DNA from: Subtercola frigoramans
GTDB lineage: Bacteria; Actinomycetota; Actinomycetes; Actinomycetales; Microbacteriaceae
DNA length: 64,000 nucleotides
Assembly (NCBI RefSeq): GCF_016907385.1
Contig: NZ_JAFBBU010000001.1
Coordinates: forward strand, 558,001-622,000
Direction of reading: 5' to 3'
In this document: positions 21,160 through 36,317 of the stretch, piece after piece
Layout of the letters: the number at the start of each line of letters is the position of its first letter
Position numbering within the stretch: position 1 is the first letter of the stretch
Position numbers and translations under genes: made by a program
The notes under the pieces: generated by a model
What the model saw: only the letters and a program-made list of their open reading frames with translations
Told to the model about the DNA's origin: nothing
Databases searched by the model: none

Positions 21160-21309
21160 TCTGCGAGCGTGAGTCGACCCTCAACGACAGTCGAGTTACC
21201 TCTGGAATTTTGACGCGCCGACAGGTAGTATCGATATACGAACAGAAGTTCGACAGGCGAACATCGGCTAGCGTGACCCGACAGCAGCCTCACCCAGCGG
21301 AGAGTGACG

Positions 21310-22008
21310 ATGATTTCAAAGACGAGTGAGAGTGCTGCGGCCGCCCTGGCCGACATTCCAGACGGCGCCACGATCATGATCGGCGGTTTCGGCCTCGCCG
21401 GGCAACCCGTCGAATTGATCGAAGCCCTGCTGGATCAGGGCTCCACCGGCCTCACGGTGGTGAGCAACAACGCAGGCAACGGGGACAGCGGCCTCGCGGC
21501 CCTGCTGAAGGCCGGGCGGGTGAACAAGATCCTCTGCTCGTTCCCGCGGCAGACCGATTCCTACGTGTTCGACGCCCTCTATCGTGCCGGCGAGATCGAG
21601 CTCGAACTCGTTCCGCAGGGCAACCTCGCGGAGCGCATCCGTGCGGCCGGAGCGGGAATCGGCGCCTTCTTCAGCCCGACCGGGTACGGCACTCAGCTCG
21701 CTGAGGGCAAGGAAACGCGTGTCATCGACGGGCGAGGGTACGTGCTCGAGCATCCGATCACCGCCGATTTCGCGCTCATCAGTGCGTACCGGGCCGATCG
21801 GCTGGGAAACCTGACGTACCGCAAGACCTCGCGCAATTTCGGGCCGATCATGGCAAGCGCGGCGACGACCACGGTGGCCCAGGTCGACCGTATCGTTCCG
21901 CTCGGCGAGATCGACCCCGAGAACGTCGTCACTCCGGGCATCTACGTGGACCGCGTGGTCGAGACCGGTGACCGATTCGAGAAAGAGGAGTGGGCCGATG
22001 TCAGGTAA
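21310..22008 (+). CDS. pcaI: 3-oxoacid CoA-transferase subunit A
   Basis: 232 residues from ATG 21310, preceded by GGAGAG. The CoA-transferase I subunit A pattern is clear (IPDGATIMIGGFGLAGQP, VVSNNAGNGDSGLAALL, GTQLAEGKETRVIDGRGYVLE). With subunit B it transfers CoA from succinyl-CoA to a 3-oxoacid. The next genes encode subunit B and a thiolase, the order seen in beta-ketoadipate pathway operons, so 3-oxoadipate is the likely substrate; acetoacetate is the alternative. It overlaps subunit B by 11 bp. Confidence 0.9.
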   Translation: MISKTSESAAAALADIPDGATIMIGGFGLAGQPVELIEALLDQGSTGLTVVSNNAGNGDSGLAALLKAGRVNKILCSFPRQTDSYVFDALYRAGEIELELVPQGNLAERIRAAGAGIGAFFSPTGYGTQLAEGKETRVIDGRGYVLEHPITADFALISAYRADRLGNLTYRKTSRNFGPIMASAATTTVAQVDRIVPLGEIDPENVVTPGIYVDRVVETGDRFEKEEWADVR

Positions 22009-22663
22009 CTCATGGACACGACGACAGATCGCAGAGCGATTGGCTGCCGACGTACCCGACGGTGCGTACATGAACCTCGGAATCGGGCTCCCGACGCTGG
22101 TCTCGAACTACCTGCCGAGCGATCGAGAGATCATCCTGCACACCGAGAACGGCATGCTGGGCATGGGCCCGGAGGCCGAGCAGGGCCACATCGACCCTGA
22201 CCTCATCAACGCCGGCAAGCTCCCGGTGACCGAGCTGCCGGGGGCGTCGTACTTCCACCACGGCGACTCGTTCGGGATGATGCGCGGCGGTCACCTCGAC
22301 CTCTGCGTTCTCGGGGCATTTCAGGTCTCGGAAACGGGTGATCTCTCCAACTGGAGCACGGGAGCCCCCGATGCCATCCCGGCCGTTGGGGGAGCGATGG
22401 ACCTCGCGATCGGCGCCAAGAAGGTCTACGTCATGATGGAGCTCGCCAGCAAAGACGGCCGCTCCAAACTCGTCGAGACCTGTACCTACCCGCTCACGGG
22501 TCTCGCCTGCGTCGACCGCCTGTACACCGATCGTGCCATCTTCGAACTCGGCCCCGACGGCGCTGCGGTGATCGAACTGGTCGGCGAGACGACCGTCGAC
22601 GAATTGCGGGAACTCACCGGGCTCGCGCTGCGCGACGCGACCTCAGCCGCGGCGACCCAATAG
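21998..22663 (+). CDS. pcaJ: 3-oxoacid CoA-transferase subunit B
   Basis: 221 residues from ATG 21998 (AAAGAGGAG at 21982-21990). The catalytic Glu50 lies in LHTENGMLGMGP, and SYFHHGDSFGMMRGGHLD is typical of subunit B. It forms the active enzyme with the overlapping subunit A. The stop is followed directly by four 18-bp repeats before the thiolase gene. Confidence 0.92.
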   Translation: MSGNSWTRRQIAERLAADVPDGAYMNLGIGLPTLVSNYLPSDREIILHTENGMLGMGPEAEQGHIDPDLINAGKLPVTELPGASYFHHGDSFGMMRGGHLDLCVLGAFQVSETGDLSNWSTGAPDAIPAVGGAMDLAIGAKKVYVMMELASKDGRSKLVETCTYPLTGLACVDRLYTDRAIFELGPDGAAVIELVGETTVDELRELTGLALRDATSAAATQ

Positions 22664-22734
22664 GGCCAGGCGAACACCGCGGGCCAGGCCAACACCGCGG
22701 CCGGGCGAACACCGCAGGCCACGCGAACACCGCA
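22664..22734. repeat. 18-bp tandem repeat, four imperfect units
   Basis: Units of the form GGGCCAGGCGAACACCGC, 18, 18, 17 and 18 bp long, start right after the pcaJ stop codon. Confidence 0.75.
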
Positions 22735-22775
22735 AACCAGACACACACTCCAGCACAACAGAAAGGTGCCCTCGA

Positions 22776-23945
22776 ATGACCGAGAGCTTCATCTACGACG
22801 GTATCCGTACTCCCGTCGGCCGGTTCGGCAAATCCCTCGCCGGTGTGCGCCCCGACGACCTCGCAGCCCACGTCGTGTCAGAGCTCGTGAAGCGCCACCC
22901 CACGCTTGACACAGCGACGATCGACGACGTCTTTCTCGGCGACGCGAATGCCGCGGGCGAAGACAACCGCAATGTGGCGCGTATGGCCAGCCTTCTGGCA
23001 GGTCTTCCGACCTCTGTGCCCGGTGTGACTGTCAACCGTCTCTGCGGCTCGGGCCTCGAAGCGGCCATCCAGGCCAGTCGAGCGGTGGAGGCGGGTGACG
23101 CCGACCTCATTCTCGCGGGCGGGGTCGAATCGATGAGCCGCGCACCCTGGGTGCTGCTGAAGCCCGAGCGTGCGTACCCGGCAGGTTCCGAGACGTTGCA
23201 CTCGACCACGCTGGGCTGGCGGATGGTGAACCCGGCGATGCCCTCCGAGTGGACGATTCCCCTGGGTGAGACGGCGGAGATCCTCGCCGACCGCTATTCC
23301 ATCTCGCGCGAGGAGCAGGACGACTTCGCCGTTCGCAGTCACCAGCGTGCCGACGCTGCGTGGAACGCTGGCATCTACGACGACGAGGTCGTGCTCGTGC
23401 CCGGAACCACGCTCGCGCGTGACGAAGGTATTCGTGCCGACTCGAGCAGGGCATCCCTTGCGACGTTGAAGCCGGCATTCCGCCGCGACGGTTCGGTCAC
23501 GGCCGGCAACTCGTCACCGCTGAACGACGGAGCGGCTGCGATGTTCATCGGTCGCGAAGGTGCGCTCGACGCGCAGCCGCTGGCCCGCATCGTTTCGCGC
23601 GCCGTCGCAGGAAACGACCCGAACATCTTCGGCATCGCTCCCGTTGAGGCGGCGAACAAGGCGCTGGCGAGGGCCGGAAAGACCTGGGCCGATGTCGACG
23701 TGGTCGAACTCAACGAAGCCTTCGCGGCGCAGTCGCTGGCCTGCCTGAAGCTGTGGCCGGAACTCGACCCCGAGAAGGTCAACGTCGACGGCGGAGCGAT
23801 TGCCATCGGGCATCCGCTCGGTGCATCGGGCGCACGCATTCTGTTACACCTCGCCCGTTCACTCGAGCGTCGGGGTGGGGGAGTCGGCGTCGCGGCGATC
23901 TGCATCGGAGTCGGGCAGGGTCTTGCCGTCGTGCTCGAGCGCTGA
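22776..23945 (+). CDS. pcaF: Thiolase (beta-ketoadipyl-CoA / acetyl-CoA acyltransferase)
   Basis: 389 residues from ATG 22776 (GAAAGG upstream). Nucleophile Cys90 (TVNRLCGSGLEA), the His of GHPLGASGAR and the second Cys in CIGVGQG are all present. It cleaves a 3-oxoacyl-CoA to acetyl-CoA plus a shortened acyl-CoA. Downstream of the CoA-transferase subunits and upstream of an IclR regulator, the most likely substrate is 3-oxoadipyl-CoA, giving succinyl-CoA and acetyl-CoA. Confidence 0.93.
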   Translation: MTESFIYDGIRTPVGRFGKSLAGVRPDDLAAHVVSELVKRHPTLDTATIDDVFLGDANAAGEDNRNVARMASLLAGLPTSVPGVTVNRLCGSGLEAAIQASRAVEAGDADLILAGGVESMSRAPWVLLKPERAYPAGSETLHSTTLGWRMVNPAMPSEWTIPLGETAEILADRYSISREEQDDFAVRSHQRADAAWNAGIYDDEVVLVPGTTLARDEGIRADSSRASLATLKPAFRRDGSVTAGNSSPLNDGAAAMFIGREGALDAQPLARIVSRAVAGNDPNIFGIAPVEAANKALARAGKTWADVDVVELNEAFAAQSLACLKLWPELDPEKVNVDGGAIAIGHPLGASGARILLHLARSLERRGGGVGVAAICIGVGQGLAVVLER

Positions 23946-23968
23946 GGCGTGTGGTTCCAGCCGATAGC

Positions 23969-24790
23969 ATGACTGGCGTGCAGGCCGAGCAGCAAGATCC
24001 CAGTCCAGTGAGCGAACTGCCCGAGCCGAGTGACCAGTACGTGCAGTCGCTGGTTCGCGGTCTGACCGTCATTCGCGCCTTCGATGCCGATCACCCGGCC
24101 ATGACGCTCAGCGAGATCGCCGCGCAGACCTCGCTGACCAGGGCGACCGCCCGGCGTTTTCTGCTGACGCTCGTCGAGGTCGGGTACATGCAGACCGATG
24201 GGCGACTCTTCACGCTCACACCGAGGGTGCTCGAGCTCGGGTTCAGCTACCTCTCGGCCCTCACCCTGCCGCAGGTCGCCCAGCCCTACCTCGAGCAGCT
24301 CTCCCGCGAGACGGGCGAATCCAGCTCGGCTTCGGTGCTCGATGGCGGCGACATCGTCTACGTGGCGAGGGTCGCCGTGCGGCGCATCATGAGCGTCACG
24401 ATCAGCGTCGGCACCCGCTTCGAGGCGTACACCACGTCGATGGGGCGCGTGCTGCTCGCAGGCCTCGCACCGGATGATCTGCTCGCCCACCTCGACCTCG
24501 TGACGTTCTCGCAGAAGACCCCGCGTTCCATCGATACCCGGCCCGCTCTGCTCGCCGAACTCGACCGGGTACGCGAGCAGGGCTTCGCGCTTGTGGACCA
24601 GGAGCTCGAGATCGGGCTGCGGTCGATGGCGGTGCCCGTGTTCGACGCCTCCGCGCGCGTGGTGGCGGCGATCAACGTGTCAGTCTCGGCCGGCACGCGC
24701 ACGCCGGAGGAGATGAGGGCGACGCTGCTCGCGCCCCTGCGTCACGCGGCTACCGAGATCAGCGCGAGCCTGGCCGCGGCCCGTCGCTAG
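23969..24790 (+). CDS. IclR-family regulator, PcaR-like
   Basis: 273 residues from ATG 23969 (GTG 23978 is an alternative). The N-terminal winged helix is MTLSEIAAQTSLTRATARRFLLTL. The C-terminal effector domain has SSSASVLDGGDIVYVARV, GTRFEAYTTSMGRVLLA and the G(F/Y)ALVDQELEIGLRS signature. Most IclR proteins of this branch regulate aromatic or beta-ketoadipate genes, which fits its place at the end of the CoA-transferase/thiolase operon. Confidence 0.92.
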   Translation: MTGVQAEQQDPSPVSELPEPSDQYVQSLVRGLTVIRAFDADHPAMTLSEIAAQTSLTRATARRFLLTLVEVGYMQTDGRLFTLTPRVLELGFSYLSALTLPQVAQPYLEQLSRETGESSSASVLDGGDIVYVARVAVRRIMSVTISVGTRFEAYTTSMGRVLLAGLAPDDLLAHLDLVTFSQKTPRSIDTRPALLAELDRVREQGFALVDQELEIGLRSMAVPVFDASARVVAAINVSVSAGTRTPEEMRATLLAPLRHAATEISASLAAARR

Positions 24791-25791: not shown

Positions 25792-26661
25792 CTACGCGGT
25801 GATTCCGTTGGCGTCGAGCGAGTCGGCGACAATCGTCAGGCCCTGCAGGCCCGGCATCTTCGCGATGTGGGCGTCGATGGCGTTGACCGCCTTTCGACCT
25901 TCGGGGCCACCGAAGATGTGCCCCATCACGTGCTTGACTTCGGTCTTGTCCATGATGGTCGAGCCGACCGGTCCCCAGAACTTGCCGAGCGCGAACCGCG
26001 CGAACTTCTGGGCGACGACGCTCTTACCGAGGCGCTCCCGAGCCTGCGTTGCATAGAAGGCCACGTGCCGCGCCTCCTGCATTGCGATGCGCTTCAGGAG
26101 CTCGGCGAGCACCGGGTTGCCTTCGATTTCGGCAAGGCGCTTGTAGGCGGCGACGGCCGACCACTCGTTTGCCGCACCCCAGATCATGTGCACGCCGATG
26201 AAGTCCTTGCCCACGAGGTTCGAGAGCACGGACTGTTTCACGGGGTCGATCCGGTCTTTCCAGCCCAGTTTCAATCGCTTCGACTTGAGTTCATCGAACT
26301 CGAGCACGATGTCGTGCATACGCAGCACATCGGCGAGCGCCTCGCCATGCCAGAACTCCTCGCGGTTCCACATGGTCATGAAGCCGGTCACGTCGGAATC
26401 GCGGTGTGAGGGTGTGACGAGCATGTCACGCATGTAGCAGACGGTGTGATATTCCACATCGGCCATATATCGAATTACGCGCAGGGTGTCAGGAGGCAGG
26501 GGATTCGTTCGGAAGTCCTCGAAGTCGAGATCTTCCCAGGCGACGTTCTTCGAGGTCTTGGTGTAGTTGTCGATATCGAAGGCCATGAGCGTGTGAGAGG
26601 GGCTTGCTGTGAAGCGAAGCTCCTCGTCCTCCTCTTGAATAGAACCGGCTTGTGCGTTCAT
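25792..26661 (-). CDS. Ferritin-like di-iron protein, acyl-ACP-desaturase type
   Basis: 289 residues from ATG 26661. The four-helix di-iron ligand set is complete: Glu70 (DVEYH), Glu102 and His105 in REEFWHG, Glu166 (AANEW) and Glu196 with His199 in QEARH. This E..ExxH..E..ExxH pattern is that of soluble ferritin-like desaturases and related oxygenases, which use O2 to desaturate or hydroxylate acyl chains. The gene ends the lipid operon, 71 bp downstream of a PlsC-type gene. A second, ligand-poor paralogue heads the same operon (31388-32263). A role in modifying ether-linked chains is my inference; it could instead be a fatty-acid desaturase or hydroxylase. Confidence 0.85.
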   Translation of the reverse strand: MNAQAGSIQEEDEELRFTASPSHTLMAFDIDNYTKTSKNVAWEDLDFEDFRTNPLPPDTLRVIRYMADVEYHTVCYMRDMLVTPSHRDSDVTGFMTMWNREEFWHGEALADVLRMHDIVLEFDELKSKRLKLGWKDRIDPVKQSVLSNLVGKDFIGVHMIWGAANEWSAVAAYKRLAEIEGNPVLAELLKRIAMQEARHVAFYATQARERLGKSVVAQKFARFALGKFWGPVGSTIMDKTEVKHVMGHIFGGPEGRKAVNAIDAHIAKMPGLQGLTIVADSLDANGITA

Positions 26662-26732
26662 CCGGGTTGGTCTGGCTGGGTTGATCTATGCCTATTGTGC
26701 GATAGCTTGCTGAATTACCGGTGTTGCTTGGG

Positions 26733-27455
26733 TCAAGTCCACACTTGGCGTCGAGTTTGACGCTCGGGCTTTGTTGCATTCCAGACTCGACGCCAATGGG
26801 CGGCTGTCTCGTCTGTTCCCGTGTCGGGCAGTGAACCCTCGGCCTGTGCGCGAAGGGCGCCGTACCAGCCGAGTTTCGCCTCGGCCATTCCGAGCGTGAT
26901 GGCTTGGACGATCGAGGCATTCACTGCAGAGGGTTCGTCGCCGGCCGCCGTGTGGATTGGTGCGCCGAAGACGACGGTGACCGAGTGGCCACCCGATTCG
27001 GGCAGAACGCGCCACGGCGGCAATGCACGAAAGGTGCCGACCAGTGCCACGGGCACGATGGTGACACCCGACCGGATGCCCAGCCGCGCCGCCCCGAGAT
27101 CGAACTCCGTCATCGAGCCGTCGTCGGAGCGCTGCCGCTCGGGAAAGAGCAGAACGCTGACGCCGTGGTGCAGTAGCGCGCTGAGGCGCGACACCGAGCG
27201 GAGCCCGCGAGCACGGTCGGCCAGGCCGAGCAGGCCGTGATGCGGCTCGACAGCCACGGAGACGAGCTGCGGAGCGTACTCGCGCACGAGCTCACCCACC
27301 AACGCAGCATCCAGTTCACTCGGGTGGTTTGCCACGAAGAGGTACGGACCCGGGTGGTCTGCCAGCTGGTCGAGCCCACGAACGACAGGGTCGACAGCGA
27401 GGCGCACGGCAAGAGCCGAAGCCCTGCCGAGCCCTGTACCGGGCGTGTGCTTCAT
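26733..27455 (-). CDS. PlsC-type acyltransferase
   Basis: 240 residues. The HX4D catalytic motif is present (VANHPSELDAAL). The second motif, usually FPEGTRS, is FPERQRS, so a conserved Gly-Thr pair is changed. The family moves acyl groups onto glycerophosphate-type acceptors at the membrane. Its ATG overlaps the stop of the LarA-like gene by one base, so it is part of the operon running from 32263 down to 25792. It is one of two PlsC-type proteins in this lipid locus; which acceptor it uses is unknown. Confidence 0.87.
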   Translation of the reverse strand: MKHTPGTGLGRASALAVRLAVDPVVRGLDQLADHPGPYLFVANHPSELDAALVGELVREYAPQLVSVAVEPHHGLLGLADRARGLRSVSRLSALLHHGVSVLLFPERQRSDDGSMTEFDLGAARLGIRSGVTIVPVALVGTFRALPPWRVLPESGGHSVTVVFGAPIHTAAGDEPSAVNASIVQAITLGMAEAKLGWYGALRAQAEGSLPDTGTDETAAHWRRVWNATKPERQTRRQVWT

Positions 27456-28996
27456 CAGCTGACCTCGGAGATGGTCACCGGCGCCCCGTGGACGTACGTG
27501 ATCGAGGGAGAGAGCCCGACGCTGTCCGATGCCATCTCCAGCGCGTCATTCAGGGTCGTCGCCGCTTTGAACCCCATGCGCCTGGTCGACTCGAGGTTGC
27601 CCCCGACGAAGATGACGTCACCGAGGTGCTCGATGGCCGGGGCCGCCGAGTACCAGGCGTGGAACGGGTGCAGCGCGTGGTGGGCGAAGCTCGTCTGGTA
27701 GAGGTGCCGGTACCACGGGTCTGAGGCGAACTTGCCCTCGAATTCCGCTGAGAGACGGCCGGAGTCGGTGGTCGTGGCTAGCGCCTCGGCGAAGAAGTCG
27801 ACGTAGGCCGGGTGATGGAGCGGGTGGAACCAGTTCGCCAGCGGGTGGTAGAAGATCGCCGTGCCGCCCTTGCGAACCACGGGTGCCGACGTCGAGCCGT
27901 TGAAGACCTGGCCGAGTCCGAGGGCTGCGGCCGTTACGGGGTTCAGAGTGGTGCCGATGCCGCCGGGGTTCGGGATCCCGAAGAGCGCGATGTCTGCGGG
28001 AGTGTCGACCTGGCCAACCTGCTGCTGGGTCAGAAACGCTTCGGTGAGGGGATGCACGGAGCTCGGTCGCCCGGCAACCACCGAGGTCACGCCGAACCCG
28101 ATGCCCGAGATCTGGCTCAGCCCGACACGTTTGCGAGAGGGCAGCAGTCGGCTTGCCGCCTGGAGGCCGGCGGAGAGGGCCCTGTCAGTGACGCTCCACT
28201 CGCGTTCGCGCTTGCTGAGGAACGCGGTGCCGGGGCCCGTCGGCTCTGGTGAGAGCGTGACATCGATGGTGAAGACCCGGGCCGTGTCGCCGATCTGGTC
28301 GACGAGGGCGCCATAGGCGTCGGCAGAGCCCTGAGCCACCGCGAGAGGGGAGTTGAGGGCGCGAGCGGTTGCAGCGCTGGCCAGCTTCGTGACGACGGCA
28401 GGTGCACCTTCGTTGCCCACGGCACTGGCGAGGCGAACCGAGATGACGAGGTCACTCGAGACGACTCGGGAATTGATCTCGATCGGGGTGCCGTCGGCGG
28501 AACGGCCCACCTCCACGAGATCGTTCGTGGCTTCACTGTCGTGACTGCGCAGCCGGTCTGGCGAGAACGACGCGAACACGCGGTCACCGAGCACGGCGCG
28601 CAGATCCTGTGCGGTCAGGCGGCGCCGCAGCCCGGTTGCCGCAATGAGTTCGACGTCGTCGACGCCGGCCACAGCGGCAAGCTCGAGCACTCGTTCGATG
28701 ACGCGCTGCCGAACATCCGGTGCAGAGCGAGCGGTGAGCGGCTGGGACAGGTCGTCGAAAACGATCGTCACGCGGGTTTCCGGGTGAAGCAGGGCCTTCA
28801 GCGGTTCGCTGTCGACAGGCTTGGCAAGTGCACGGTCGATCTGGGCGTCGACCGAACGGATGCCCGGCAGCGCATCGGGCGGGTACAACACGCTGGCCCC
28901 GGCGGGCAGCCGCTCCAGCAACACCTTCTCGCCCTGGAAGACGACGAGCGGAGGGGTCTGTGCGTCGACGCTCAGAACGAATCCTGGTCTACTCAT
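27455..28996 (-). CDS. LarA-like (DUF2088) protein
   Basis: 513 residues. The N-terminal half resembles the lactate racemase LarA domain: VTIVFDDLSQPLTARSAP corresponds to the DxTRP segment, and ELIAATGLRRR and GTPIEINSRVVSSDLVIS match conserved blocks. The His expected in the ATGxH segment is replaced by Arg, and the GGxK/NH region with further nickel-cofactor ligands is not recognisable, so racemase chemistry with the pincer cofactor is doubtful. It overlaps the fatty acyl-CoA reductase gene by 8 bp and the PlsC gene by 1 bp, which ties it firmly to the lipid operon. Function is unknown. Confidence 0.8.
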   Translation of the reverse strand: MSRPGFVLSVDAQTPPLVVFQGEKVLLERLPAGASVLYPPDALPGIRSVDAQIDRALAKPVDSEPLKALLHPETRVTIVFDDLSQPLTARSAPDVRQRVIERVLELAAVAGVDDVELIAATGLRRRLTAQDLRAVLGDRVFASFSPDRLRSHDSEATNDLVEVGRSADGTPIEINSRVVSSDLVISVRLASAVGNEGAPAVVTKLASAATARALNSPLAVAQGSADAYGALVDQIGDTARVFTIDVTLSPEPTGPGTAFLSKREREWSVTDRALSAGLQAASRLLPSRKRVGLSQISGIGFGVTSVVAGRPSSVHPLTEAFLTQQQVGQVDTPADIALFGIPNPGGIGTTLNPVTAAALGLGQVFNGSTSAPVVRKGGTAIFYHPLANWFHPLHHPAYVDFFAEALATTTDSGRLSAEFEGKFASDPWYRHLYQTSFAHHALHPFHAWYSAAPAIEHLGDVIFVGGNLESTRRMGFKAATTLNDALEMASDSVGLSPSITYVHGAPVTISEVS

Positions 28997-31391
28997 GGAA
29001 GATCTCTTTCAGGCTGGGTGCGGTGGAAAGTTCGTGTTGCGGGCGGTTCGCCTCGGCGACCGTCACAGGAGGGGCCGGGCGCAGGAGCTCGGCGATGGTG
29101 TCGATGGGCGAGATCTTGTTGTCGGTCCACTGGTGGATACGCCAGTGTTTGACTGTGGCGTGCTGGTACAGCGCCGCATCGGGGTTCACTGCCTGCGGAT
29201 TGCCGACGAGTTCGAGCCAGGCACGGTCGGCGTGGCTGTCGCCGTAGGCGTAGGACTTCGACAGGTCGATTCCCTCGCGCTCGGCATAGATGCGCAGCCA
29301 GGCCGCCCTGGCCTCGTCGACGAGCGGCGGTTTCGACAGGTAGCCCGTCCAGATGCCGTTCTGGGAGTGCATCGTGCTCGCGACGACTTCGTCGAAAAGG
29401 GAGACGAACGGTGAGGTGAAGACGTCGATCGCACCGGTCACGAGCACCGTGCGGTGGCCGGCCTCGCGGTGCTTGCGGATCTGCCTGACCGCCTCGGGCC
29501 GGATGCGCTGAAGCAGCACGTCGCCCACCGAGTCGCGGATGAGCTCGCGGAGCGCGGCCTCGTCGACGCCTTCGTAGCGCCGCAGGAAGGTGCGGAGGAA
29601 CTCGCCCCGGTCGCGCCGGTCGGTCGCGATGTAGCGGGGCAGGGAGCCGAAGAGGTTGGCGAGTTCTGCCGGCCACTTCGACTTGTCGAGGCTGGCGAGC
29701 CTCACCCACAGGTACTGCTCGATGATGTTGGTCGCCAGTACGGTGCCCTCGAGGTCGAACACGGCGACGGCGTCGGGGTTGTGTGGCAGCGGTTTCTCGA
29801 CCTGGGCCTTGGGGCGCGGACGAGAACTGAAGGTGCGCATCAGGGTGGTCACGGCCGGGAAGTGAACCTGTTGCAAGTAGTGATCCCAGTCGATCAGTTG
29901 CGAGTTGAAACCGAACTTCGCCCGCTCGGATTCGGGCAGCTGTTCGTTCAGGGCTGCGGTGCGGCTGTCGTCGTAGATGATCTCGGCCTGGGTGTAGTTC
30001 TGGTACAGGTCGGAGTAGGCGCGCAGCAACTCGAGATCGGTCTGCTTGGAGGAGACGCTGCGCATCCAGTCGCGTGTGACACTCGACGACGGCAGGCGCA
30101 GGAGGGTCTTGCGGGCGTAAGAGTTCGAGCGTTCGCCGAAGCGCAGGGCCCTGGCGATGGCCTTGGAGCCGGGGAACGACCAGAGGGGGGCTCTGATGTG
30201 GCCCCGCTGGTCATCCGGAATCGGGTTGGCCCTGAAGTAGGTCAGCACGTTCTCGTAGATGTCACGCATGGTGAGCGGGTTTCGCCCGCCCGAACTGAGG
30301 TGATAGTACTTCGGCTCGCCTACGGACGGGGGGTTCGCGGCTACGGCAAGGGTGGCGTTGACCACGATGTCGACGGGAATGATGTCGAGAATGCTGTCGG
30401 GGAGCCCAGGGAACTCTGGCAGCAGCCCGCGCCCATAGGCGATGATCAGCGGGTCGGCGACCTTGAAGCCGTCGATCCAGCCGGGGAAGGGGTGATTCAA
30501 CGCGCTCTCGATGATGGCGGGTCGCACGACAGAGAGGCGGTGGCCGTTGCCGGCCCACAGCTGCTCGGCGACGCGTTCGCTCATCGACTTGGTCAGGGCG
30601 TACACGTCGGCCCAGCCGAGGCTCTGCGCCCGGGTGCGGCCGTAGTCGACCAGCCGCTTCGTGACCCATTCGATGCGACCCTGTTCGGCAGCCGCGGCGA
30701 TGGCCTGGGGGCCGACCTTGCCCACCTCACTGCGCGCTGCGGCGATGAGCTTTCGCAGCACCTCGGGGCGGCGGGAGGAGGCCTCGACCTGCGCGCGGGC
30801 GGCGACCGCAGCATCCATCTCCGCACGCCAGTCGACAGTGTGCTTCAGGGATTCCTCGACAGTGGTGCCTTTGCGGATGCCGCCGACGTAGGCCGTCGAC
30901 ACGTGAACGACGTGTGGGTCGGAGCCGGTGCGCAGCAGGGCCTCGTACAGCCCGACCGCGCCACCGACGTTGGTCTTGAAGGCTTCGTCGATGGGCGGGT
31001 CGAACGACACGGTCGATGCGCTGTGGATCAACACGTCGAGGTCGGCGGGCATGGCGGCGACCGAGCCCATGCTCGACTCCACCACCGTGATGCGTTCACG
31101 CATGGCGCGGTCGACCTCGTCGGCGCCGACCCGTTCGCGCCACTTCGAGAAGACGGGCTTGCGCAGCAGGCTCGTCAGTCGCGCTTCGCCGGTCAGCGAG
31201 CCTTTCGGCCGGATCAGCAGGGTCATGCGAGTGGTCGGGTAGTCTGCCAGCAGCTTCTCGAGCAGGGCCTGGCCGACGAATCCGGTGGCGCCGGTGAGCA
31301 TGATGTGCTGGCCTTCGAGGGGTGCGAAGACCTCTGCGTCTGGGCCTGGGTTCAGCACAGCATCCGGCGTGGACTTCTCGCTGTTGCTCAC
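28989..31391 (-). CDS. Fatty acyl-CoA reductase fused to a HAD-IB phosphatase-like domain
   Basis: 800 residues. The N-terminal extended SDR domain has NAD(P)-binding TGATGFVG (33-40), VHVSTAYVGG and catalytic Tyr264/Lys268 (VYALTK). The region to ~520 fits the male-sterility/FAR family that reduces acyl-CoA to aldehyde or alcohol. The C-terminal HAD domain (from ~540) has DLEGT at 546-550, a Thr motif (LVTGAIDVF) and GDSHADRAW (~717), but the second Asp of DxD is Glu. It overlaps both neighbouring genes (8 bp and 4 bp). In an ether-lipid pathway it would supply the fatty alcohol used by the AGPS-type enzyme encoded at 33962. Confidence 0.92.
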   Translation of the reverse strand: MSNSEKSTPDAVLNPGPDAEVFAPLEGQHIMLTGATGFVGQALLEKLLADYPTTRMTLLIRPKGSLTGEARLTSLLRKPVFSKWRERVGADEVDRAMRERITVVESSMGSVAAMPADLDVLIHSASTVSFDPPIDEAFKTNVGGAVGLYEALLRTGSDPHVVHVSTAYVGGIRKGTTVEESLKHTVDWRAEMDAAVAARAQVEASSRRPEVLRKLIAAARSEVGKVGPQAIAAAAEQGRIEWVTKRLVDYGRTRAQSLGWADVYALTKSMSERVAEQLWAGNGHRLSVVRPAIIESALNHPFPGWIDGFKVADPLIIAYGRGLLPEFPGLPDSILDIIPVDIVVNATLAVAANPPSVGEPKYYHLSSGGRNPLTMRDIYENVLTYFRANPIPDDQRGHIRAPLWSFPGSKAIARALRFGERSNSYARKTLLRLPSSSVTRDWMRSVSSKQTDLELLRAYSDLYQNYTQAEIIYDDSRTAALNEQLPESERAKFGFNSQLIDWDHYLQQVHFPAVTTLMRTFSSRPRPKAQVEKPLPHNPDAVAVFDLEGTVLATNIIEQYLWVRLASLDKSKWPAELANLFGSLPRYIATDRRDRGEFLRTFLRRYEGVDEAALRELIRDSVGDVLLQRIRPEAVRQIRKHREAGHRTVLVTGAIDVFTSPFVSLFDEVVASTMHSQNGIWTGYLSKPPLVDEARAAWLRIYAEREGIDLSKSYAYGDSHADRAWLELVGNPQAVNPDAALYQHATVKHWRIHQWTDNKISPIDTIAELLRPAPPVTVAEANRPQHELSTAPSLKEIFHE

Positions 31392-32263
31392 GTGGTGACT
31401 CCCGTCGCGCCGCCGGAGGTGGGCAGCCCCGCCGCCAGCCGAGACCCGACGTTCACCCCGAAACGGTGTGCAGCCTTGCGCGCGACGTTGAGGCCTCGAA
31501 GCCCGGGAAGCTGGTCGACGGCGCCGTCGATCGCTTCGATGTCAGCCTGCCCGCCCGGGCCGCTGAACAGGTAGCTCATCATGAATCGCGTCTCCTGGGT
31601 TGGTTGCTCGCTCGTACCCGTCGGCGCCCACGAGTGCCTCAGGGACGACCGTGTCAGCTTTCGGGCCTGCGCCGATTCTTCCAGCCTGCGAAGGGTTTCG
31701 CCTTCAAAGAAGTGCAAGTGGCGATTTCGCAGCACCTGAAAGCCGTTCAGAACCTCGGCGAGTGCGGCGTTCGGCTCTCTTCTGACGATCTCGGCGTACG
31801 ACACCCGGCTCACGAGTTCGTCGATGTAGCCGTGGGTCACGTGGATCGAGATGAAGTCCTCGCCGATGAGGTTCGACCTCACGGCGTTGACGATGGGCGA
31901 GACCCGGTCGACGAACTCGCGCCCGAACCGTACGACCGTGAGCCTCGCGCGATTCGTGGCGGGCACGAAGGTGTCGTGCACGGCGAGAATGCGGTCGAAG
32001 GCGTCGGCGATCCAGTACTTCTCGAACGCCCAGGTGGCCAGAAAGGCAGTCAGGCGGGCGTCTTTGTGCGAAGGTGTCACGAGCACGTCACGCATGTGGT
32101 GCATCGTGAAGTTCTCGAGGTCGCGCAGGTACGCGATGGCCCGCAGCGACTGTGCACCGAGTGGATGCTCGGCAAACGCCTCCAGCGGCAGAGTGGCTTC
32201 GTGGCTTCCTGCCGCCGTGCGCGTGTACTGGCGAATGTCGAAGTCGCCGGTGTTCTCGGTCAT
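31388..32263 (-). CDS. Ferritin-like paralogue lacking part of the di-iron site
   Basis: 291 residues from ATG 32263, chosen because GGGAG lies 7 bp upstream; a long in-frame extension upstream is non-coding. It aligns along its length with the di-iron protein at 25792 (RDVLVTPSHKDARLTAF against RDMLVTPSHRDSDVTGF; ATWAFEKYWIADAF against MTMWNREEFWHGEAL). Of the six ligands Glu50, Glu149 and His182 remain, but the Glu102, His105 and Glu196 equivalents are Lys82, Ile85 and Arg179. It is therefore probably unable to bind two irons and may be a structural partner of the active paralogue. It is the first gene of the operon and overlaps the reductase gene by 4 bp. Confidence 0.85.
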   Translation of the reverse strand: MTENTGDFDIRQYTRTAAGSHEATLPLEAFAEHPLGAQSLRAIAYLRDLENFTMHHMRDVLVTPSHKDARLTAFLATWAFEKYWIADAFDRILAVHDTFVPATNRARLTVVRFGREFVDRVSPIVNAVRSNLIGEDFISIHVTHGYIDELVSRVSYAEIVRREPNAALAEVLNGFQVLRNRHLHFFEGETLRRLEESAQARKLTRSSLRHSWAPTGTSEQPTQETRFMMSYLFSGPGGQADIEAIDGAVDQLPGLRGLNVARKAAHRFGVNVGSRLAAGLPTSGGATGVTT

Positions 32264-32362
32264 GGGGTACTCCCGTGCTGTGTACGTCGCGGTTCGGTGG
32301 AACCGCCGGCGAAGGGGCGTATTCGCAACTGTCGTTCGTTGCCGTGTCGTAGGGTGTTTGCC
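32264..32362. promoter_or_regulatory. Divergent promoter region of the lipid locus
   Basis: This 99-bp spacer separates the minus-strand operon (start 32263) from the plus-strand genes (start 32363) and must hold both promoters. A perfect palindrome CGGTTC-GGTG-GAACCG at 32290-32305 is a candidate operator, possibly for the TetR-family protein encoded at 35679. This assignment rests on position and symmetry only. Confidence 0.45.
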
Positions 32363-33133
32363 ATGGGAACCGCATTGATCACAGGCGGCAGCTCGGGCAT
32401 CGGAGCATCGTTCGCCCGGGCGCTGGCGACCAGGGGCGAGAATCTTGTTCTGGTTGCGCGCGACACAGAGAAACTCGACAGGGCGGCCGCTGCACTGCGG
32501 CTGGAGTTCGGCGTGAACGTCGAGACGGTCTCTGCCGACCTCGCGGTGCGCGCGGACGTCGTGCGCATCGGCGAGATCCTGGCGCGCACAGACGACCCGA
32601 TCGACACCCTCGTGAACAACGCCGGCTTCGGGGTGCACACCTCGCTGCTCGCAGAAGACACGACGCCGCACGAGCACGCCTTCGACGTGATGTGCCGTGC
32701 AGTACTCATGCTGGGGGCGGTCGCCGGCCGAACCATGAAGGCCCGCGGTTCAGGCACGATCATCAACATCTCGAGTGCGGCCGGTTTCATCACGATGGGC
32801 AGCTATTCCGCGATCAAAGCGTGGGTGCGCATCTACAGCGAGGGTCTCGCCGTCGAGCTGAAGGGCAGCGGAGTGCAGGTGACCGCGCTCTGCCCCGGCT
32901 GGGTTCACACCGACTTTCACGATCGCGCAGGCATTCGCAAGTCGTCGATTCCGGAGTTCTTGTGGATCGACCTTGACGAGATGGTCGAAGACGGGCTTGC
33001 TGATGCCGTCAGTGGCAAGGTCATCTCCATCCCTTCCAAGCGGTACTCGGCGCTCATGTTCGTCGCCAGGCACGCCCCGCGTAACGGAATCCGATGGATC
33101 TCGGGCCGCATTTCATCCAGTCGCGCGCACTGA
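32363..33133 (+). CDS. Short-chain dehydrogenase/reductase of the lipid locus
   Basis: 256 residues from ATG 32363. The N-terminal NAD(P) motif is TGGSSGIG, followed by NNAGFG and the catalytic Ser (INISSAAGF) and Tyr/Lys (YSAIK). The tail (PSKRYSALMFVARHAPR) resembles membrane-associated SDRs that act on lipid ketones. Alkyl- and acyl-dihydroxyacetone-phosphate reductases (DHRS7B, Ayr1) belong to this superfamily, so reduction of alkyl-DHAP made by the neighbouring AGPS-like enzyme is a reasonable proposal; other SDR substrates remain possible. Confidence 0.88.
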   Translation: MGTALITGGSSGIGASFARALATRGENLVLVARDTEKLDRAAAALRLEFGVNVETVSADLAVRADVVRIGEILARTDDPIDTLVNNAGFGVHTSLLAEDTTPHEHAFDVMCRAVLMLGAVAGRTMKARGSGTIINISSAAGFITMGSYSAIKAWVRIYSEGLAVELKGSGVQVTALCPGWVHTDFHDRAGIRKSSIPEFLWIDLDEMVEDGLADAVSGKVISIPSKRYSALMFVARHAPRNGIRWISGRISSSRAH

Positions 33134-33215
33134 CACAGGCCTGTTTCGGCCCTCGTAAATAGTATCGCTACGGTGTGCGTTTCGGTTCGCGGTGCATTGT
33201 GAGTACGCTGGGTTG

Positions 33216-33965
33216 GTGGAGTTCGGCAATAGGTACACTTCACGAGCCCAAGCGGGAGCTCGTTTCGTAGCACAGCGCCTTCTGCTGAAACCGCTCATCT
33301 GGTCGATGGTGAGAATCCACGTCACCGGTCGCTCGCAGCTGAAAGATGTGCACGGGGCCTACATCGTCGTGGCCAACCACAGCAGCCATCTGGATGCCCC
33401 GCTCATCCTGGGCGCAATGCCGAGCAGGCTCTCCCGCTACCTCGCGGCCGCCGCCGCAGCGGACTACTTCTTCGACGTGTGGTGGCGCAAAGGCCTCACC
33501 GCGCTGTTCTTCAACGCGTTCCCGGTCGATCGCAGCGCGACCTCGCGCTCGAACGGTCTCACCGGCAAACTGCTGCACCACGGTGTGCCTCTGCTGGTCT
33601 TCCCCGAGGGAACCCGCTCCAAAGACGGAACGATCGCCCCCTTCAAGGCGGGTGCAGCAGCGCTCTGCATCAAGTACGGCATCCCGTGCCTGCCCTTGGC
33701 GATCATCGGTGCATCCGAAGCCATGCCGCGGGGGCGCAACTGGCCCGTGCCCGGTCGGCCACCGGTTGAAGTCGCCTTCGGTGAACCGCTCATTGCTGGT
33801 GAGGGCGAGACCGTCGACCAGTTCAACAAGCGCATCGAGCGCACGGTACGGGAGCTTCACGTCTCACACCAGCCGAAACTGCCCGTGAGTCTGATCGACC
33901 CAGAACTGCAGAACGACCCCGGAACGCCGGGTACTACGCACACCCCCACCGAAGGAGCCGCATGA
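33216..33965 (+). CDS. PlsC-type 1-acylglycerol-3-phosphate (or DHAP) acyltransferase
   Basis: About 249 residues from GTG 33216; GTG 33192 is an equally possible start and neither has a clear Shine-Dalgarno. The motifs are complete: NHSSHLD (HX4D) and FPEGTRSKDG. A membrane-associated N-terminus precedes them. It overlaps the AGPS-like gene by 4 bp, so the two are co-translated; this suggests it provides acyl-DHAP for the AGPS reaction or acylates the alkylglycerol-phosphate afterwards. The C-terminal Pro/Thr-rich tail (~25 residues) is variable. Confidence 0.9.
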   Translation: MEFGNRYTSRAQAGARFVAQRLLLKPLIWSMVRIHVTGRSQLKDVHGAYIVVANHSSHLDAPLILGAMPSRLSRYLAAAAAADYFFDVWWRKGLTALFFNAFPVDRSATSRSNGLTGKLLHHGVPLLVFPEGTRSKDGTIAPFKAGAAALCIKYGIPCLPLAIIGASEAMPRGRNWPVPGRPPVEVAFGEPLIAGEGETVDQFNKRIERTVRELHVSHQPKLPVSLIDPELQNDPGTPGTTHTPTEGAA

Positions 33966-35632
33966 CCGACGTCAAACACATGAAGTGGTGGGGTTGGGGC
34001 GTTGAAGGCGTGGGTTTCCACCACGAAGACAAGCCCGGCTTCGCGCCGTTCGTTGTTGACGCCGTCGGAATCGATGTGTGGCGTGAGCCCGTGCCGCCGA
34101 TCGACTTCTCCGAGGTCGCCGTGCCGCCGAGCCAGGCGGGCGCCGAACTGATCGACGCCCTGACGCTCATCGTCGGGCCAGAGTATGCGACGGTCGATGA
34201 CCTCGAACGTGTCGTGCACACCTACGGCAAGAGCATCCGGGATCTCATCAGGCTTCGCGCCGCGATCCTGCCGCGCATTCCCGACGTCGTGGTCTACCCG
34301 GCAGATGAGAGCGCAGTGCAGCGCATCGTCGACCTCGCCGTGGCGACGAACTCGGTCATCATTCCCTTCGGTGGCGGCAGCAACATCGTGGGAAGCCTCG
34401 AACCGCTGCCCACCGAGACACGACCCGTGATCTCGCTCGACATGGGCCGGCTGTCGCGCGTGCTCGAGATCGACGAGTACTCCGGGCTCGCCACCATTCA
34501 GGCCGGCGTGCTCGGCCCCGACATGGAAGAGCAGCTGAACGCCCGCGGCTGGACCATGGGGCACTTCCCCGACAGCTTCACGTACTCCACCCTCGGCGGG
34601 TGGATCGCGACCCGTTCGTCGGGCATGCAGTCAGACAAGTACGGCGACATCGCCGAGATCACCAAGGGCATCAGGGTCGTTCAGCCCGGCAAGCTGCTGG
34701 TCGTACGCCCCATTCCGTCGTCGGCGACCGGGCCGAGTGTGCGCGAGGCGATCCTCGGCAGCGAGGGCCGCCTGGGTGTCATCACCGAGGCTGTGGTGCA
34801 GGTGCACCGCGTGCCCGAGAAGCGTGAGGTCATCGGTTACCTCTTCCGCGACTGGGATTCGGCGCTCGCCGCCATGCACGACATCAACAAGAGCGATGCG
34901 GCACCGTCGATCACTCGCGTCTCTGACGCGAGGGAGACCGCGTTCTCGTTCAGTACCTCCAAGGCCAGCCACGGCATCAGCGGGCAGGTGCAGAAGGCGT
35001 TGTTCGCGTTTCTGAAGCGCCGCGGGTGGAACCTCGACGAGGTCTGCCTCTCGTTCATCGGCTACGAGGGTTCGTCGGCCAACGTCGCCCACCAGAAGTC
35101 GGTGGTCGGGGATGTGCTCAAGAAGCATGGAGCGATCAACCTCGGCAAGGGCCCGGGAACGCTGTACGACCAGAAGAAGTTCGACACCCCGTACCTGCGT
35201 GACTTCCTGCTCGACCGGGGGGCTGCGGCCGACGTGTCGGAGACCTCTGCACCGTGGTCGAAGCTCAAGCCGCTCTACGACAACGTCTTCGCTGCGGCGA
35301 ACAAGGCGTATGACGAGATCGGCATGAAGGGGTGGATCATGTGCCATCTCTCGCACTCGATGCACGCGGGAGCCTGCCTCTACTTCACGTTCGCGTTCAC
35401 TCACGACGGGGTCGACCCGATCGCGCAGTACGACGTCGTGAAGTCGGCCATCCAGCAGGCCTTCATCGACTCAGGGGCGACGCTGTCGCACCACCACAGC
35501 GTCGGTCTCGAACACTCGCAGTGGGAGGTCGCAGATATCTCCGAGGCTGGGGCAGACCTCGTGCAGGGAATGTTCACGGCCGTCGACCCGGGTGAGAACC
35601 TCAATCCTGGCAAGATCCTGCCGACGCGCTGA
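33962..35632 (+). CDS. Alkylglycerone-phosphate synthase (ether-bond-forming flavoenzyme)
   Basis: 556 residues. AGPS swaps the acyl group of acyl-DHAP for a fatty alcohol, creating the ether bond. Specific AGPS signatures are visible: MKWWGWG at the start, FAD loop PFGGGSNIVG (135-144), HFPDSFTYSTLGGWIATRSSGM (201-222; cf. GHEPDS..STVGGW in animal AGPS), GACLYFTF, and LSHHHSVG with the catalytic HHH at 510-512. This is a much closer match to AGPS than to D-lactate or glycolate oxidases of the same superfamily. Together with the reductase fused to HAD and the SDR it defines an ether-lipid locus. Confidence 0.93.
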   Translation: MTDVKHMKWWGWGVEGVGFHHEDKPGFAPFVVDAVGIDVWREPVPPIDFSEVAVPPSQAGAELIDALTLIVGPEYATVDDLERVVHTYGKSIRDLIRLRAAILPRIPDVVVYPADESAVQRIVDLAVATNSVIIPFGGGSNIVGSLEPLPTETRPVISLDMGRLSRVLEIDEYSGLATIQAGVLGPDMEEQLNARGWTMGHFPDSFTYSTLGGWIATRSSGMQSDKYGDIAEITKGIRVVQPGKLLVVRPIPSSATGPSVREAILGSEGRLGVITEAVVQVHRVPEKREVIGYLFRDWDSALAAMHDINKSDAAPSITRVSDARETAFSFSTSKASHGISGQVQKALFAFLKRRGWNLDEVCLSFIGYEGSSANVAHQKSVVGDVLKKHGAINLGKGPGTLYDQKKFDTPYLRDFLLDRGAAADVSETSAPWSKLKPLYDNVFAAANKAYDEIGMKGWIMCHLSHSMHAGACLYFTFAFTHDGVDPIAQYDVVKSAIQQAFIDSGATLSHHHSVGLEHSQWEVADISEAGADLVQGMFTAVDPGENLNPGKILPTR

Positions 35633-35678
35633 GTCGTGCATTCGCGCAGCCGGGGTCTCGTGCGGTGGGGCAGTCGTC

Positions 35679-36317
35679 ATGGCTGACGACGCCCCGCTGC
35701 TGCCGAAACCCGGTGTGGAGCCGCCTGATGTTCAGAAGCCGGGCGCGCAGAGCGTCGGCGCGCAGAAGCCCGGCGCGCAGAAGTCTGCGACCGTTGCGCT
35801 GATCCTGTCGACAACCCTCGACATCCTGCGCACGAGGGGCCCGGCGGCCGTCAACATCGAGGCCGTCTCTGCGGCGTCCGGAATCGCCAAGACCACGATC
35901 TACCGGCGGTACGAGAACCGTGACGCCCTTCTCGAGGCGGCGATACTGTCGGTGGTCATCAACCCGGTTCCGCCCGCCGACACGGCGTATATCGAGCAGC
36001 TCCGGTGGGTCATCCGGCAGTCTCGCGACGGCGTCGAGAACATACTGGGCATGGGCGGGGTCTCTGCCATTCTCGCGGGTCAAGACAGACAGTTCATGGA
36101 CCTCATCCGCGGCATGCTCGTGCCCTGGATCGCCCTCGTGCGCAGCCTCCTCGTGGCCGGCGTCGCTTCGGGGGAGCTGCGCGCCGACGTGGATGTCGAT
36201 GTCGCCCTGAACTTCATTCTCGGGTCGTCGCTCGGGGAGTTCATTCGCGTGGGCACGGTCTCAGACGACTGGTCGGAGCGTGTGCTCACCATGGTCTGGC
36301 GCATGGTCGGGCCCTGA
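35679..36317 (+). CDS. TetR-family regulator with repetitive N-terminus
   Basis: 212 residues from ATG 35679. The HTH is VNIEAVSAASGIAKTTIYRRYENRDALLEAA. An unusual ~35-residue N-terminal extension repeats KPGAQ-type units (VQKPGAQSVGAQKPGAQKSA). It starts 46 bp after the AGPS-like gene on the same strand and is the natural candidate to control the lipid locus. Confidence 0.9.
   Translation: MADDAPLLPKPGVEPPDVQKPGAQSVGAQKPGAQKSATVALILSTTLDILRTRGPAAVNIEAVSAASGIAKTTIYRRYENRDALLEAAILSVVINPVPPADTAYIEQLRWVIRQSRDGVENILGMGGVSAILAGQDRQFMDLIRGMLVPWIALVRSLLVAGVASGELRADVDVDVALNFILGSSLGEFIRVGTVSDDWSERVLTMVWRMVGP

Follow-up and report, generated by a model that had tools for sequence, protein, structure and literature searches.

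We describe here a locus of the actinobacterium Subtercola frigoramans which, to judge by its gene content and by the homology of its alkyl-dihydroxyacetone phosphate (alkyl-DHAP) synthase (AGPS), very probably serves the aerobic synthesis of ether lipids, as the preliminary description of this DNA, made from its letters alone, had proposed. The locus lies in the window, by which we mean the whole stretch of 64,000 nucleotides that was analysed (positions 558,001 to 622,000 of contig NZ_JAFBBU010000001.1, assembly GCF_016907385.1), within a genome assembled as a 3.68-Mb single contig. The best explanation, which rests on association and which we hold with moderate confidence, is that the locus would make plasmalogens aerobically, with a soluble ferritin-like protein that we call F1 acting as the vinyl-ether desaturase. 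F1 is the best desaturase candidate because of its modelled fold, its intact metal site, the constant company that it keeps, the lack of CarF or PlsA matches in this genome and the dimethylacetals of the host. The locus is offered as a candidate pathway for the dimethylacetals already in print for aerobic Subtercola and Kineococcus.

25792..26586, minus strand: F1, a soluble ferritin-like di-iron protein of 264 aa, proposed plasmanyl (vinyl-ether-forming) desaturase (sub-threshold family matches, ligands, model)
26733..27455, minus strand: PlsC1 acyltransferase (PF01553, 5.8e-12)
27455..28996, minus strand: LarL, a LarA-like protein of 513 aa (PF09861, 3.9e-27)
28989..31391, minus strand: FAR/HAD, a fatty acyl reductase (FAR) with a C-terminal HAD-IB phosphatase-like domain (PF07993, Male-sterility, 1.2e-44; PF12710, 1.3e-33)
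31388..32263, minus strand: F2, a conserved F1 paralogue without the metal ligands, proposed partner subunit (F1 comparison, model)
32264..32362, no strand: divergent intergenic region of 99 bp (start codons read)
32363..33133, plus strand: SDR, proposed alkyl-DHAP reductase (PF00106, adh_short, 2e-36)
33192..33965, plus strand: PlsC2, proposed DHAP acyltransferase or alkyl-glycerol 3-phosphate (alkyl-G3P) acyltransferase (PF01553, 4.1e-21)
33962..35632, plus strand: AGPS, alkyl-DHAP synthase (FAD_binding_4 and FAD-oxidase_C, PDB matches)
35679..36317 (a longer reading from 35592 is possible), plus strand: TetR-type regulator (PF00440, 6e-9)

AGPS is convincingly a homologue of the alkyl-DHAP synthases. 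Its best match in the PDB is the Dictyostelium enzyme (2uuu, E 6e-118), with the guinea-pig enzyme next (4bby, 3.6e-81), and the HHH and HFPDS stretches by which it had first been recognised are both present. Residues R319, R413, Y474 and H510-512 align with R419, R515, Y578 and H615-617 of the guinea-pig protein, which we take to be its active-site residues, and they are conserved in 77-78 of 78 rows of the alignment. The other core enzymes also retain their motifs: the SDR keeps its YxxxK pair in 76/76 rows, while FAR keeps the GxxGxxG glycines in 65 and the YxxxK pair in 66 of 68 rows (that is, wherever a row covers the motif) and the three Asp residues of its HAD domain in all 68. Pfam and NCBIfam back the enzyme and regulator labels. 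The FAR, the SDR and the two PlsC acyltransferases thus stand as first named, in an inventory that had nonetheless overlooked the LarA-like gene and the HAD domain of FAR. The genes form two operons that diverge from the 99-bp region, with the strands originally assigned to them: F2-FAR/HAD-LarL-PlsC1-F1 on the minus strand and SDR-PlsC2-AGPS-TetR on the plus strand. Several pairs overlap, as had been said of the operons in general, but gaps of 146 bp (F1/PlsC1) and 58 bp (SDR/PlsC2) mean that overlap is not universal. We place the start codon of F1 at 26586 (MAFDID, matching relatives) and not at 26661. Subtercola proteins match F1 at 94% and LarL at 97% identity, which places the organism in this genus or very close to it.

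Two ferritin-like genes are present, as the preliminary description had noted, but only F1 keeps an intact di-iron site. Soluble acyl-ACP desaturases carry a pattern of four Glu and two His residues with two ExxH motifs, and in F1 these six ligands are conserved in 105-106 of 106 rows. Family matches for F1 in Pfam and NCBIfam are all sub-threshold (rubrerythrin, FA_desaturase_2, AcsF); it scores 19.2 bits against the soluble acyl-ACP desaturase family PF03405, under the curated cut-off of 22.7, and does not match PF10520, the family of CarF and PEDS1. The F1 model is nearest to the acyl-ACP desaturases, at 14-19% identity in the structural alignment. F2, which has no Pfam or NCBIfam match, is 33% identical to F1 and is modelled with the same fold (pLDDT 87), yet in 48/48 rows it has lost three metal ligands (E77 to K, H80 to I, V or L, and E171 to K or R) and is therefore not a second di-iron enzyme of F1's kind. 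Some genomes are counted twice in these F1 and F2 rows (e.g. L036 and L118). Of the 35 loci that were candidates for the F2 alignment A3, 33 were used, an internal stop having excluded L067 and L076. The earlier idea of a ferritin-like desaturase is in keeping with the complete di-iron site and the desaturase-like model of F1, which do not by themselves settle vinyl-ether formation.

No known vinyl-ether enzyme had been seen in the DNA first inspected, and searches of the whole genome bear this out. PF10520 has no match in the S. frigoramans genome, while the same search, which serves as the positive control, matched 12/296 genomes of a phylum sample. It likewise found nothing in 11 relatives, several of them draft assemblies and S. 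vilae, S. lobariae and S. boreus among their number, although no control genome matched there either and such a search is uninformative alone. PF09989, which we take to be the PlsA domain, was not found in the S. frigoramans genome by a search that matched 4 of 14 control genomes. Eleven of the 12 phylum genomes with PF10520 genes belong to one family, and at four short PF10520 loci (L126-L129) no relatives of the genes described here were seen.

AGPS and F1 are inherited together. The co-occurrence survey suggested at the outset was run on a family sample of 150 genomes and a class sample of 345 (AGPS threshold at least 62% and at least 47% identity, respectively), with G079 and G142 occurring in both. 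The family sample holds AGPS in 40 genomes, FAR in 41, F1 in 44 and F2 in 44 (found via the F1 query), excluding AGPS rows at 32-37% identity (G017, G063, G064, G142) and, from the F1 count, G113, in which the F1 query matched only F2. All 40 AGPS genomes carry FAR; the 41st FAR genome is G107, where a contig end cuts PlsC2. Both AGPS and F1 are found in 38 family genomes, AGPS only in 2, F1 only in 6 and neither in 104 (Fisher p 9e-27, which, like the value for the class, ignores kinship). Each of the 38 pairs shares one contig, with a gap of less than 8 kb in 37. AGPS occurs without F1 in G113, where FAR too is matched only in part, and in G101, where FAR, SDR, PlsC2 and AGPS are present and neither F1 nor F2 gave a match. 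Across the class AGPS is found in 36 genomes, F1 in 34 and both in 21 (p 1e-15), not counting the F1 matches in G280, G363 and G409, which are fragments or have 34% identity; 13 of the 15 genomes with AGPS only share a single genus label (g131).

The order of the genes, counted in the best 80 of 258 named F1 loci, agrees with this picture. AGPS stands alongside F1 in 60 of the 80, and PlsC2 adjoins AGPS in every one of these. At 47 loci, in more than ten named genera, AGPS-PlsC2-SDR faces F2-FAR-F1, a six-gene order whose recurrence is therefore not due to chance. Nine more (eight Subtercola, one Labedella) have the same order with LarL and PlsC1 before F1, and the PlsC1 type is found at this position only in these nine. 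The others comprise three Ruania loci on one strand, one rearranged, eight with F2-F1 only, nine with F1 only and three that are of other kinds or short. For the seven Jiangella loci with F1 by itself, and for Naasia, AGPS lies elsewhere in the genome at 61-65% identity; neither the genome of Haloactinopolyspora nor the metagenome-assembled genome (MAG) L036 holds a close AGPS, and Actinopolymorpha has a 36% match only. The homologue lists used here are the best 120 of 1004 and the best 120 of 505. In a tree of 59 F1 sequences, nine rows of the Agromyces/Leifsonia type make up a single starred clade nested within the AGPS-linked group, which suggests that their AGPS-less state is derived and that the ether module has been lost. 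The full locus is present in another Leifsonia (L046). Six distant F1s without a close AGPS form an outer clade and may differ in role, with long branches leaving some placements unsure.

Two kinds of partial cluster were seen alongside these. L130 and L132 contain AGPS-FAR-SDR-PlsC2 clusters without F1 and F2, which are predicted to make alkyl and not alkenyl ethers. In a Jiangellaceae-type MAG (L036 / L118) the genes FAR-LarL-PlsC-F1 stand in a row, the genome yielded no close AGPS, and the cluster may represent another route, to an ether or an alcohol lipid.

In the pathway that we propose, FAR/HAD would reduce a branched acyl-CoA to the fatty alcohol and a PlsC enzyme would acylate DHAP, after which AGPS would replace the acyl group by the alcohol, yielding alkyl-DHAP. 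Reduction by the SDR would then produce alkyl-G3P, and an acyltransferase would add the sn-2 chain. Finally F1, probably paired with F2, would use O2 to desaturate the alkyl ether at its 1'-2' bond, thereby doing the job of CarF/PEDS1 with an unrelated protein. Each of these steps, the pairing of F1 with F2 and the substrate of F1 are assigned here by inference. The notion of a self-contained system, also part of the preliminary description, was conjecture, and the locus contains neither redox partners nor head-group enzymes.

The phenotype that such a pathway would account for, dimethylacetals as the mark of plasmalogens, has been reported in Subtercola, as the preliminary description had said. 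According to the portions of PMC5945732 available, dimethylacetals amount to ~22% in S. vilae DB165T, ~27% in S. frigoramans, ~29% in S. boreus and ~21% in S. lobariae (totals that we summed from the values given there), against at most 4% in Agreia, and Frondihabitans is said there to have none. Locus L007 comes from S. vilae DB165, the same strain as was measured. Complete loci are also found in S. lobariae, S. boreus and Agreia bicolorata, the S. boreus strains bearing numbers other than that of the measured one and the S. lobariae strain perhaps being a different one too. In aerobic Kineococcus, anteiso-15:0 dimethylacetal has been read as indicative of plasmalogens, and routine software labels this compound as C14:0 2-OH (both from the available text of PMC7472656). 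We considered C14:0 2-OH as a phenotype test across genera and dropped it. Its published values (PMC9287328, in part) agree with those of anteiso-15:0 dimethylacetal (PMC5945732) in S. boreus (10.4/11.0) and S. frigoramans (9.9/10.3) but not in S. vilae (15.6/3.2) or S. lobariae (3.9/9.7), and because two of the four species disagree it is a poor and unsafe proxy. The values for F. faeni (17.0) and G. tibetensis (4.2) and the traces in L. profunda and L. cavernae, again from partial sources, are suggestive only, and likewise partial sources on Herbiconiux and on Salinibacterium/Agromyces supplied no values that could be used. We found no gene assigned in the literature to the dimethylacetals of Subtercola or Kineococcus.

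Several observations weigh against F1 as the vinyl-ether desaturase. F1 occurs without a close AGPS in 5/150 family genomes (a sixth case being a contig edge) and 13/345 class genomes, so that ferritin-like genes apart from AGPS, whose wide occurrence had been named beforehand as a finding that would count against the idea, do exist to this extent. In Agromyces (4/4 searched) and two Leifsonia, F2-F1 is present, a close AGPS is missing from the genome and FAR does not adjoin. Conversely, 15/36 class genomes with AGPS have no F1; G101 and G190 hold AGPS and FAR, and G378 holds AGPS-PlsC2-SDR, in each case with no F1. On the chemical side, aldehydes are an alternative source of dimethylacetals, and, in the available parts of the sources, C14:0 2-OH, which may be mislabelled anteiso-15:0 dimethylacetal, does not exceed a trace in L. 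profunda, though a sister species has the locus, and was not detected in S. endophyticus (PMC9287328). F1 is found without AGPS in some lineages, and the F1 family is therefore not tied to ether lipids everywhere. Nine genes scanned in six AGPS-less loci (L077, L112, L115, L116, L120, L121) showed no lipid theme near F1; they include TauE, sigma/anti-sigma, PadR, FGE, peptidyl-tRNA hydrolase, lysine-decarboxylase-like, methyltransferase and PALP genes. The one gene scanned in the F1-less locus L106 is PTA.

These points lend some weight to an alternative that we nevertheless regard as unlikely, namely that the products are saturated alkyl (plasmanyl) lipids, that F1 and F2 desaturate another chain position or oxidise another lipid, and that the dimethylacetals come from FAR aldehydes or an unlinked enzyme. 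The acyl-ACP desaturase character of the F1 model would fit such a role, as would the persistence of F1 without AGPS in Agromyces, the two Leifsonia and distant families, and the accessible text on F. adelgis gives one compound ambiguously as 'aldehyde/DMA'. Against this, F1 is a near-constant companion of AGPS and FAR in the family sample, the Agromyces and Leifsonia F1s are one nested clade in which lack of AGPS looks derived, dimethylacetals make up a large share of Subtercola chains (from the partial source above), and the genome has no CarF or PlsA match that would explain them. It is improbable that the AGPS-like protein is another FAD enzyme, of the glycolate/lactate dehydrogenase type, in a cluster making a different lipid: Pfam and NCBIfam do assign it to the large FAD_binding_4/GlcD superfamily, but the Dictyostelium and guinea-pig AGPS structures are its best matches by a wide margin, the R, R, Y and HHH residues are retained almost without exception and FAR accompanies it throughout the family sample. 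Cyanobacteria make alkanes with an aldehyde-deformylating oxygenase, and a similar route here, in which FAR would give the aldehyde and F1 would be the oxygenase, seems to us highly improbable.

Synthesis of plasmalogens with F1 as the desaturase would set this locus apart from each of the known routes. The animal, peroxisomal pathway (FAR1, GNPAT, AGPS, AGNPR/PexRAP, PEDS1) has counterparts here in FAR, AGPS with its conserved active site, the SDR and an acyltransferase; the locus differs in having a soluble di-iron protein and no PEDS1-family match, in the FAR-HAD fusion and in the clustering of its genes. Myxococcus xanthus (elb operon, MXAN_1676 AGPS, CarF) is likewise aerobic, with AGPS, FAR-like, HAD and acyltransferase parts (PMC9131029, as far as available), whereas our locus has no ElbD-like fusion, its genome has no CarF family match, and AGPS is linked to F1. 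According to the available text of the same review, published in 2022, the possession of plasmalogens makes the aerobic myxobacteria a striking exception among aerobes, and true CarF is reported outside them only in Leptospira. The anaerobic PlsA/PlsR system shares the vinyl-ether end product (PMC9702350, in part) but converts the acyl ester directly, and its PF09989 domain was not found in this genome. Soluble acyl-ACP desaturases such as castor stearoyl-ACP desaturase and M. tuberculosis DesA2 share the six-ligand pattern of F1 and, to judge by its model, probably its fold, and differ in their low identity to it, in the PF03405 score under the cut-off and in the metal-less paralogue found here. 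On balance we lean slightly towards the broader proposal that F1 with metal-less F2 is an aerobic vinyl-ether desaturase that evolved independently, the second of its kind and non-homologous to CarF/PEDS1, which would give many aerobic actinobacteria their plasmalogens and explain the dimethylacetals of Subtercola (and perhaps the C14:0 2-OH of its relatives). Should F1 prove to be the desaturase, aerobic formation of the vinyl-ether bond will have arisen on two or more occasions, and a soluble enzyme ought to lend itself to study more readily than the membrane protein PEDS1. Among the titles and abstract openings listed, in lists that were capped or short, we found no paper on such a locus, subscription journals and preprints being outside the scope of the search.

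LarL resembles the LarA-family nickel-pincer racemases (LarAH14/15/16) in that it can be aligned with NF052592 from end to end, but at 499 bits it falls under the cut-off of 740. In an alignment of 17 sequences (A2), with LarA residue columns inferred from motifs, LHRRM and the HHHN loop are found in 10/11 relatives from other actinomycetes, the exception being one Micromonospora row, and the Lys of (G/C)GxK in 11/11, whereas the window's protein and five Subtercola/Labedella-type rows are without the motif His, the Lys and the His-rich loop. A search for LarC (PF01969) that matched 6 of 14 control genomes found none in the S. frigoramans genome. Given the lost motifs and the lack of a LarC match, LarL is probably a LarA-fold protein without a nickel cofactor, and we reject it as a nickel-pincer enzyme in this genome. 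Beyond the end of F1, at 21304-24790, translations resemble CoA-transferase subunits, a thiolase and an IclR-type regulator, much like a beta-ketoadipate set.
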